From contig CANXME010002303.1 of NCBI GenBank assembly GCA_948144175.1, positions 235,105 through 299,104 of the forward strand: a stretch of DNA of 64,000 bases. The letters run 5' to 3'. Below, piece by piece: positions 50,701 to 63,792 of this stretch. The DNA comes from Closterium sp. NIES-65 (Eukaryota > Streptophyta > Zygnematophyceae > Desmidiales > Closteriaceae). Numbering within the stretch: position 1 is the stretch's first letter; each line of letters begins with the position of its first letter. The notes below the pieces were generated by a model that was not told the origin of the DNA, did no database searches, and saw only the letters and a list, made by a program, of their open reading frames with translations. The position numbers were made by a program, and so were the translations under genes.

Positions 50701-53700
50701 TGCAACTGTCCCTGCGCTTGAGGCTGAACAGGGTCTTGAAACAACTTCTGGTACAGCTGCTCTATCTGCTGCTGACGAGTCAGTCTTTCTGGCACATCCT
50801 CTCTCTCTTGCTGCACCTGCTGCTGCAGGGTCGGATTGCTGGCCCTGCTGCTCCCATGCCCTGGGGCCTGTGCTGTGTGCCGTGGTTGAGTCGCCTGTAC
50901 TGCTGCCCGTGGCACTTGTCTCTCCTGATTCAACTGCACACTTGCGTGTGCTGCATGTGGTGCATGTGACACATGCGCTGCTTGTGCCATGTGTGCTCCA
51001 TGCGACACACGCGCTGTTTGAGCTCCATGTGCCATGTGCGATGAAGATGGCGCCTTCGCTGCAGTAGCAGCCACACCACCAGGTACACGACTTGCAGCAG
51101 CACTGGCAGCAGCGCGGGAGGTGGTGGTGGTGGCAGTGGTGGCAGCAGTTGCAGCGGCGGCAGCTGCAGTGGTAGCAGCAGCAGTGGTCTTGTGGTGGTA
51201 TTCGAGGTTGAGAGCGCGGCACAGCAGCTCCACACGCCGCTTGCAGAACTCCACCACGCGCTTCTGCGCCGCGTTCCATGCCAGGTGCTCCTCCCGTGTC
51301 CACGGCCGTAACCGCTTGCCTGCTGGTATGCCTCCGCCTGTTGCTGCTGCTGGTAGTTGTTGTGCTGCTGGTGCTGCTGTTGGTGCTGGTGGTGCTGTTG
51401 CTGTTGCTGTTGGTGCTGGTGGTGCAGATTGTGCTGCTGTTGGCACTGATGGTGCTGCTGTTGGTGCCGCTGCTGATGCTGATGGTGCTGCTGACGCTGC
51501 TCCTGGCACCCTCTCTGGTTCTGCTTTCGCTGCTCCCCTGTCCGCTGCTTCCTCCTTCGTTTCCTCCTTCCCTCCCTCCATTGCTTCCCCCTTCACTTCT
51601 CCCTTCACTTCCGCCTTTGTTTCCTCCTTCGTTTCATCCTTTGCTTCCTCCTTCATTTCCTCTCTTTCTTTCGTTTCCTTCTCACTTGCTCCCTCCTTCG
51701 TTTCTTCCTTCACTTCTTCCTTCAATTCCTCCTTCACTCCCTCTGTTCCTTCCTCCATCGTCACGCGCTTATCAGCATCATCGACACCACTAGCACCACC
51801 ATCAGCACCACTGGCACCAGCAGCAGCACTTGTTTTAGCTTTCAAACCCGCAATCATGCGATCCCCCTCAGCACCCTCTTGCACTGTTGCCGCCTTCCCC
51901 TCTGCTCTCCCCTCCGCCCTAGAACCTGCCACGTCACCCATTGCAACCTCCCCACCACCAACCACTCCCCCAGGGTTGGTTGTCACAGCATCAGGTTTGG
52001 TGGGTGCATCAGCAGGACCGGTGGTCGAAGCAACAGGATTGGTGGTCACCGCACTAGGTCTGGTAGGTGCATCACCAGGATTGGTGGGCTGGGCAGCCGA
52101 GGTGGCAACTGGGGTAGGTGGATTCGCCGGGATGTCCTCAAGGGAAAGGCCAATCATGTTGCGGGGCGGGGCGGGCGGCAGCAACAGCTCAGCGCGTGCC
52201 ACGTCAGCGAGGCCCAATTTATCGTCGTTGATGATGTCACTCCACCGCCCGTAGCCGTGCCTGCGCAGGAGGGATGGGGCGAAGGTGAGGTGGAGAGGCG
52301 GTCATAGATTGGGGGGGAGAAGGGAGAGTGATGTCAGGCAGAAGGAAGAATGGAAAGCACGGGTGTGCCTGGCAAGTGGTCACTTCACACCGGCGGCAAG
52401 TGGCATGGCTAAGAGCGGTCATTGATAATGCCACGCCACTCCACCACTCGTAGCCGTGCCTGCGTGGAATTGAAAAGGCAGGCAGGGTTTTGGGGGAGGG
52501 TTGAGACGGAGTGATGGCAGGCAGGCGCAAGCAAGGCAGGACGAGAACCACATGGGTGCGTCACTACACCTCCCAAAGCACACTTGGTAATTTCTTTGAG
52601 AGGCTGCAGGTCATGCTGAGGATATGTGAAAGTGAAATGCATGCACAAGGGCCACTCACTTGGTGATGCCTTTCAGCAGCTGCAGGTCGTGCTCGGCCCG
52701 CCAGTGCCGCGTGCGGAACAGCGGCGCCAACTGGCTGTGACTCTTCAGGTGCTCTGGTAGCCCCGGCAGCAACTCCTCCCAACCCAGCTCCACCGCTTCT
52801 GCTTCTTTTTCCAACCCGTCCTCCTGCTCACCCTCCTTCTTTCTACCCTCCTTCTTTTCACCCTCATCCTTACCACCCTCCACCTCGCCCTCTCTCCTCC
52901 CTCCCTTGTCGCCCTCTCCCTCTCCCCTCACTTCCTCTCCCTTCCCTCCCTCTCCCTTCCCTTCCTCTCCCTTCCCCCCCTCTCCCTTCCCTTCCTCTCC
53001 CTTCCCTCCCTCTCCCTTACCTCCTTCTCCCTTCATACCCAGATCAACGTTTCCCTCTTCCCGCTTCTCAGCCCCCTTCGCATTTCCCTCCACGCCCTCC
53101 ATCTCTGAACGCCCATCCCCCTTCCCTTCCCCCGCCACCCCTCCACGCCCCCCCTCTCCCTTCTCATCCCCTTCCCCACCACCCAAAGTCACGCCCTCCA
53201 TTTCTGAAGGCACATCCCCTTTTCCTTCGCCCACCGTGCCTCCGCACACTTCCTCACCCGCCTTCCTAACAGCCTCTTCGTTCCCAAAAGGTGCTGCTGC
53301 TGCTGCTGCTGCCTCTTTTGTTGCTGCGCCTCCCGCTGCTGCCTCTGCGACCCTACACTCCACACCACTCGCGTCTGCATCCCTCTCTTCCACACCCCTT
53401 CCCTCTGCACTCCCACCCTTGGCCAGCCTCCTCGCCCTGACCCTCTCCCGCAGCCTCTCCCGGGTGCTCTCAGCCGCGGCCACCTTGGTGCGAATGAGGT
53501 GCAGCAGGGCCAGGCGGATGAGCACCTCCTGCGGATTCACGCCCTCCTTGGGCACTCCGTCTGGTGGCGGGGGGAGGACGAAGGAGGTGGGGAGGGAGGA
53601 GAAGAGGAGATGGGGATGGGGATGGGGGAAGTGAGAGGGGAAGGAGAGGGGAATGAGATGCAGAAGGGCCAGGCGGATGAGCACCTCCTTGGGACTCACG

Positions 53701-63792: not shown

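Follow-up and report, generated by a model that had tools for sequence, protein, structure and literature searches.

Intronic copies of exon edges in a Closterium CHD remodeler gene suggest recurrent duplication of units of about 150 bp

Ten of the 14 exons that we placed in a CHD remodeler gene of Closterium sp. NIES-65 are accompanied, in the adjoining intron, by one to four partial copies of their own edges, 22 copies in total. Most of these copies appear to belong to tandem duplications of about 150 bp that took in an exon edge, its splice site, and the neighboring intron. The explanation that we consider likely is that duplications of this size fall at random in the gene and that selection and neutral drift then leave survivors that look centered on exon-intron borders. 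The first-pass annotation of this DNA had listed the same 10 exons (1 to 6, 9, 10, 13, and 14) with one to four extra copies each and had attributed them to a recurrent process of short tandem duplication centered on the borders. The exon list was recovered identically at our score threshold of 44, and recurrent duplication is supported by the copying of the intron part along with the exon edge in 14 of 19 units and by a divergence that varies widely among copies. To the exon edge and splice site originally described we add the neighboring intron and a unit size of about 150 bp. The centering, by contrast, is not required, since random 150-bp duplications suffice, and only a weak hint of it (P = 0.014) is left.

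The gene lies on the minus strand of the window (the whole stretch of 64,000 nucleotides that was analyzed; GC content, 59.5%) between 64 kb and about 48 kb, with its 3' part inside the window and its 5' part, where the N-terminal PHD finger and chromodomains of such a protein would be encoded, beyond the window end. Exons were placed on that strand by reading frame, splice sites and phases, and CHD homology; all 14 join in phase, with no intron between copies. The domains recognized in the spliced peptides are SNF2-rel_dom, Helicase_C, DUF1087, and CHDII_SANT-like, the last of these in E13, and among PDB entries the helicase piece matches CHD4 best (E value of 4.7e-61). The combination of SNF2, Helicase_C, DUF1087, and CHDII_SANT-like domains in the predicted protein is that of CHD subfamily II (CHD3/4/PICKLE). 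A search of viral_contigs for relatives of the CHD protein and of a Copia protein from the window gave zero matches, as did a search of genome_contigs for relatives of the Copia protein. Single frame breaks occur in three exons, at a G6 run in E4, near an A4 run in E8, and in a G-rich stretch of E10. Sequence errors are probably the simplest reading of these breaks; alternatively, the gene may be decaying.

Border copies were sought by aligning each splice site, taken with 40 nt of its intron and at most 150 nt of its exon, to as much as 1,260 nt of sequence on the intron side, and a score of 44 was taken as the threshold for a copy. Dinucleotide shuffles, 200 at each of 25 splice sites (E12 was aligned but left unshuffled), reached at best 34 at any site, while the copies score 44 to 175. 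The count of 22 comprises 21 copies that align with an exon and one (60306 to 60346) that scores 44 against another E4 copy only. All 22 lie on the same strand as the exon copied and in the intron adjoining it. When every exon was searched against the whole window, border copies were confined to the adjacent intron and the same strand, and the other matches scoring at least 44 fell in low-complexity sequence rich in acidic residues or glutamine, or in a repeat internal to E14. No inverted border copy was found in the window, the two minus-strand matches being of low complexity. Relatedly, an unbiased scan for diverged local repeat pairs (spacing of 60 to 600, score of at least 44, satellites of period up to 60 masked, amounting to 8,244 bases in 1 to 46 kb) returned 30 pairs in 52 to 64 kb, copy-to-copy pairs included, against 1 in 46 to 52 kb and 2 in 1 to 46 kb. 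Self-alignment of the gene region, one of the checks proposed with the original observation, thus came out in its favor, as 120 shuffles of 52 to 64 kb gave a single pair (1 over 60 block shuffles and 0 over 60 whole-region shuffles).

The exons and copies described here are all on the minus strand. E1 (63693 to 63792), a functional exon with the donor GTAAGC, has two donor copies. The first (63535 to 63615) repeats 57 nt of exon together with intron, at a spacing of 134 and with a score of 127. The second (62832 to 62908) is separated from E1 by a transposon insertion: of the 835 bp between them, 529 bp are the transposon and its target duplication, and the distance without the transposon is about 306 bp, or two units. 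The inserted element, 521 bp long and located at 63010 to 63530 in the intron between E1 and E2, ends in perfect 18-bp terminal inverted repeats, shows a target duplication of 8 bp (GTTTGTGG), and lies within the array of E1 copies; we take it to be hAT-like. E2 (62424 to 62566) is preceded by an acceptor copy (62654 to 62710) that is identical at 57 of 57 positions at a spacing of 135 and is followed by two donor copies, at 62228 to 62322 (spacing of 167) and 62143 to 62200. E3 (61610 to 61722) has two acceptor copies. One of them (61789 to 61886) differs at 4 of 73 exon nucleotides, all four differences being silent, and the other (61954 to 62023) has an intron part that does not stand out clearly from windows of other introns. 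In the downstream intron, a short copy of the E3 interior (61526 to 61560; spacing of 138, score of 48) stops short of the donor.

E4 (60944 to 61081) has the most complex surroundings, with an acceptor copy at 61138 to 61271 (spacing of 145 to 152) and three donor copies. These lie at 60660 to 60748 (spacing of 258 to 259, about 98 bp of which is a 28-bp satellite), at 60499 to 60593, and at 60306 to 60346, the last being the degraded copy whose score of 44 is reached against donor copy 1 only. A 20-bp tandem array of the E4 donor (60458 to 60541; 4.2 copies, 98% matches) forms a ladder of near-identical E4 donors. Both copies of E5 (59698 to 59867) have lost their splice dinucleotide, the AG in the acceptor-side copy (59945 to 60019; spacing of 151 to 154) and the GT in the donor copy (59517 to 59622; spacing of 155). 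E6 (58879 to 58945) has a single acceptor copy (59061 to 59111; spacing of 155). E9 (57188 to 57263) has four copies: acceptor copy 1 (57334 to 57452; spacing of 146 to 152), which spans the entire 76-nt exon and carries a 5-nt insertion; acceptor copy 2 (57493 to 57535), with its AG lost; and donor copies at 57080 to 57126 (spacing of 98) and 56955 to 56995. The remaining copies are a donor copy of E10 (56111 to 56738) at 55925 to 56038 (spacing of 154); an acceptor copy of E13 (52660 to 53560) at 53651 to 53743 (spacing of 159), for which the homology of the intron part is borderline; and an acceptor copy of E14 at 52437 to 52464 (spacing of 199). E14 itself (48249 to 52260) is a long exon with a low-complexity tail, and its 3' limit is provisional.

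Four exons, E7 (58396 to 58518), E8 (57859 to 58201), E11 (55748 to 55822), and E12 (55316 to 55377), have no copy at the threshold of 44; their best scores are 17 to 33, and the top value comes from an acidic, low-complexity similarity between E8 and E10. For E11 there is at most a doubtful remnant at 55648 to 55667, with a score of 23 where 95% of shuffles reach 22 or less and the maximum is 26. The intron between E12 and E13 contains a 14-bp minisatellite of 37 copies (54034 to 54557), near which lies a large imperfect palindrome (54703 to 55064).

The copied units are of similar size. The 14 primary spacings, a list from which the short E3 copy is omitted, are 134, 135, 167, 139, 145, 259, 151, 155, 155, 146, 98, 154, 159, and 199 (range, 98 to 259; median, 152; mean, 157; standard deviation, 37), and removal of the roughly 98 bp of 28-bp satellite from the 259-bp unit gives a mean of 150 and a standard deviation of 22. 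Kolmogorov-Smirnov comparisons showed poor fits to exponential (P = 0.0059), loguniform (P = 0.00035), and lognormal distributions with a sigma of 0.5 (P = 0.027), while a lognormal distribution with a sigma of 0.3 was not rejected (P = 0.18). Such a narrow unit size points to a mutational process. In the 14 primary units the exon part measures 23 to 89 nt. The earlier description had each copy comprise one splice site plus 30 to 80 bases of exon; the copy at 61526 to 61560 misses the splice site, and 3 of 20 tested copies have lost the dinucleotide.

Whether the intron beside an exon edge was copied along with it was judged in several ways. Compared with its partner, the intron part reaches a score attained by at most 10 of 500 shuffles in 14 of 19 pairs; the pairs above that level are E2 donor copy 2, E3 acceptor copy 1, the E5 acceptor-side copy, E9 acceptor copy 2, and the E13 acceptor copy (12 shuffles). 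A stricter control used windows from the gene's other introns. At most 5% of these windows scored as high as the true partner for 14 of 19 units, namely, all nine donor units and 5 of the 10 acceptor units; for the acceptor units of E3 (copies 1 and 2), E5, E6, and E13, the share was above 5%. A cruder per-base comparison is clearly passed by few pairs (3 of 19 scored above almost all of the 152 mismatched pairs) because pyrimidine-rich introns resemble one another. By hand count, about 8 to 23% of aligned columns in the intron parts are mismatches. Because the intron beside both copies is mostly homologous, most units would seem to have arisen when an exon edge was duplicated in tandem together with its splice site and intron, and not by the pasting in of a border, although pasting of an exon edge alone may account for the two E3 acceptor units and those of E5, E6, and E13. 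Some units were duplicated two or three times. Microhomology was looked for by eye at the junctions of two units, and the junctions are no longer readable in such old copies.

Intron lengthening is usually ascribed to transposons and unidentified insertions. Here, border copies account for about 40% of the intron bases in the CHD gene (a figure from a unit list that includes the satellite inside the 259-bp unit), making that share of one gene's introns traceable to its own exon borders and bearing out the earlier claim that the duplications lengthen introns. When the recognized units, the transposon, and two satellites are subtracted, about 4.0 of 8.6 kb of intron remains. Mean introns in Closterium are given as about 485 to 554 bp in the excerpt available to us (PMC10407611).

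How could random duplication give rise to copies that all sit at exon borders? We propose that duplications of about 150 bp would arise repeatedly in the gene, with no preferred location along it. If they fell inside exons or across two splice sites, they would alter the mRNA and be removed by selection, while those across exactly one splice site would be silent, the extra copy becoming intron. The copy still attached to the exon body would stay in use, that is, the first for a donor and the last for an acceptor. The extra copies would then drift neutrally with their exon side still recognizable, and the survivors would appear border centered. With lower certainty, the narrow unit size might come from nucleosome-phased replication intermediates, such as Okazaki fragments.

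We simulated random 150-bp duplications on the CHD gene with its recognized copies removed, leaving short ancestral introns. About 36 to 40% of events crossed one border, 29% fell in introns only, 24% fell in exons only, and 6% crossed more than one border. Exon-only events amounted to 0.60 to 0.67 per one-border event, which for 14 units gives 8 to 9 expected (product by hand), whereas the scan of 52 to 64 kb found no pair wholly inside exons. Selection probably removed the exon-only duplications, which should stand out most readily but are absent from the scan. The exons are not free of every duplication, as E14 has internal short-period repeats at 51971/52034 (spacing of 63, masked as satellite) and 48407/48494 (spacing of 87). 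The simulated ratio of one-border to intron-only events was 1.2 to 1.4, but few intron-only pairs (at least about one) should be seen because the intron part by itself would reach the threshold in just 2 of 19 known units; the three intron-only pairs observed (55051/55156, 59270/59410, and 63798/63865) fit this expectation. Random duplication, selection, and detectability thus reproduce the border excess, and targeting is not needed.

These results bear on the main competing explanation, a process that seeks out exon-intron junctions, for example through nucleosome edges, R-loops, or splicing-coupled breaks. Such a process would account directly for the derivation of all 22 copies from the adjacent exon edge or near it, and it could accommodate the five acceptor units without clear homology in the intron part. 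The exon parts are also less spread than in the simulation (standard deviation of 19 versus 33, P = 0.014), a weak hint that some border preference is possible. However, the survivorship model yields the border excess without targeting, and the three intron-only pairs show that duplication is not restricted to junctions. We therefore regard a border-seeking process as unlikely, though the strongest of the alternatives.

Drift of the extra copies, the last step of the random-duplication model, can be compared with the copies themselves, whose exon parts diverge by 0% to about 20%. Over 21 alignments, the differences fall at the three codon positions in the numbers 24, 19, and 63, where a neutral copy alongside a silently changing exon predicts 1:1:2; third positions are slightly above this ratio (chi-square of about 4.2, P of about 0.12, by hand). 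This third-position bias led us to consider selection on the copies, an idea that was dropped because a neutral copy and a silently evolving exon predict nearly the same. In the two-copy arrays, 6 of 8 shared differences are silent compared with 12 of 27 private ones, a contrast in the expected direction that is not significant (P = 0.23). The splice dinucleotide is intact in 17 of 20 tested border copies, so that decoy splice sites are indeed left behind, and this retention is about what the divergence of the copies predicts. Unit lengths are multiples of three in 3 of 20 cases. By our reading, 9 of 21 alignments contain frame-breaking indels; the damaged frames ascribed to the copies are thus borne out in part. 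Taken together, the sequences suggest that the copies are neutral, dead decoys. Because the true donor lies upstream of its copies and the true acceptor downstream of its copies, single-border copies form no acceptor-donor pair within the intron and frame no pseudo-exon, with the possible exception of the E9 copy that spans the whole exon; this may be why they are tolerated.

The same observations weigh on the proposal that selection preserves the copies as poison splice sites or as regulatory alternative ones. The intact dinucleotides, the third-position bias, and E3 acceptor copy 1 with its exclusively silent changes could be read in its favor, but the dinucleotides are retained no more often than under neutrality, the indels break frames, the units are mostly not multiples of three, and 15 of the 27 private differences alter an amino acid. 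We give this proposal little credence.

An assembly artefact, in which two diverged haplotypes or fragments about 150 bp in read length were concatenated at contig ends, seems about as improbable. A common short-read length is indeed close to the spacing of about 150 bp, and some sequence errors seem to persist, since three exons are frameshifted in or close to homopolymers. On the other hand, the window contains no N, the divergence of the exon parts covers a wide span, copies in serial arrays have differences in common, and a complete transposon with its target duplication sits inside one array. Outside satellites, moreover, 46 kb of the same contig contains two repeat pairs, both at putative LTR-type repeats, and this scarcity speaks against a contig-wide assembly fault. 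The same region (1 to 46 kb, largely Copia retrotransposons and LRR gene pieces) is a weak control for gene-specificity of the duplication, because its repeats are apparently younger than the intron parts of the units. A second intron-rich gene was not found among the longer frames scanned in the rest of the window, where the matching frames were Copia and LRR.

Introners insert copies into many genes, and the many intron-associated repeats here resemble them in number; E9 acceptor copy 1, which covers a whole exon, recalls a mutually exclusive exon. Mobile insertions of the introner type and duplicated mutually exclusive exons are nevertheless hardly credible as explanations, as each border copy in this window matches only its own neighboring exon, is strictly local to the adjacent intron with no related copies dispersed across other introns or genes, and, with one exception, is partial, with at most one splice site, and as the copies contain many indels, including the 5-nt insertion in that exception.

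What we do find is direct, adjacent copies that share exon sequence, in 22 cases, with the adjoining intron copied in 14 of 19 units, as expected of tandem duplication across a border. Short internal duplications within genes are also the subject of work on intron gain by duplication, and border-crossing duplication is already known. The closest known event, so far as the excerpted report goes, is in potato RdRp, where one tandem duplication across an intron-exon boundary created a new intron (PMC4974935). There, too, the duplicate crosses one boundary and carries the splice site, polypyrimidine tract, and branch site (PMC4974935); unlike that single event, about 22 copies in the CHD gene lengthen existing introns. 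In the intron-gain model of Rogers (1989), as cited in the same excerpt, duplication of an exon piece containing AGGT gives a new intron (PMC4974935), whereas the CHD copies bring an existing border into an existing intron. It is the density of copies and the narrow unit size that are unusual here. No gene-wide border duplication of fixed size was found in the titles and abstracts that searches of open-licence papers returned, a scope that leaves most subscription-journal papers outside it.

As for the unit size, the portion of a yeast study available to us reports that loss of FEN1 (rad27) produces direct duplications with a median of 148 bp within inverted triplications, links them to nucleosome midpoints and Okazaki termini, and notes that FEN1 loss also raises tandem duplications (PMC13334657). 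Those events contain an inverted central piece (PMC13334657), while the CHD introns are without inverted border copies. From the size of about 150 bp alone, nucleosome-phased Okazaki processing is plausible as the source of the units, and this possible nucleosome link becomes testable. It is conceivable, though doubtful, that introns in this lineage grow in nucleosome-sized steps by a genome-wide, replication-linked duplication of about 150 bp, with events that cross one splice site as the main source of intron length. If true, such growth would leave almost all exons accompanied by a fossil record of their former edges. The apparently neutral edge copies beside real ones make the duplication rate testable, and the near-identical splice sites side by side do the same for the choice made by the spliceosome.

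The remainder of the window also contains several repeats of its own. The interval from 902 to 31171 contains at least three Copia elements that are related and apparently nested; they appear to be young because their presumed terminal repeats are 96 to 100% identical, and GC-rich short-period minisatellites are interspersed with them. An insertion of about 373 bp at 15531 to 15904, with 139-bp direct terminal repeats that are 95.7% identical, is missing from the inverted partner at 31.2 to 31.8 kb and presumably resembles a very small LTR-type element (TRIM/SMART-like). Two LRR gene copies, 89 to 96% identical in parts, lie at 36258 to 46620 with a Copia element between them, and the second copy is broken by a 1.5-kb element whose direct repeats (44023 to 44153 and 45373 to 45503) are 131 bp long and identical.
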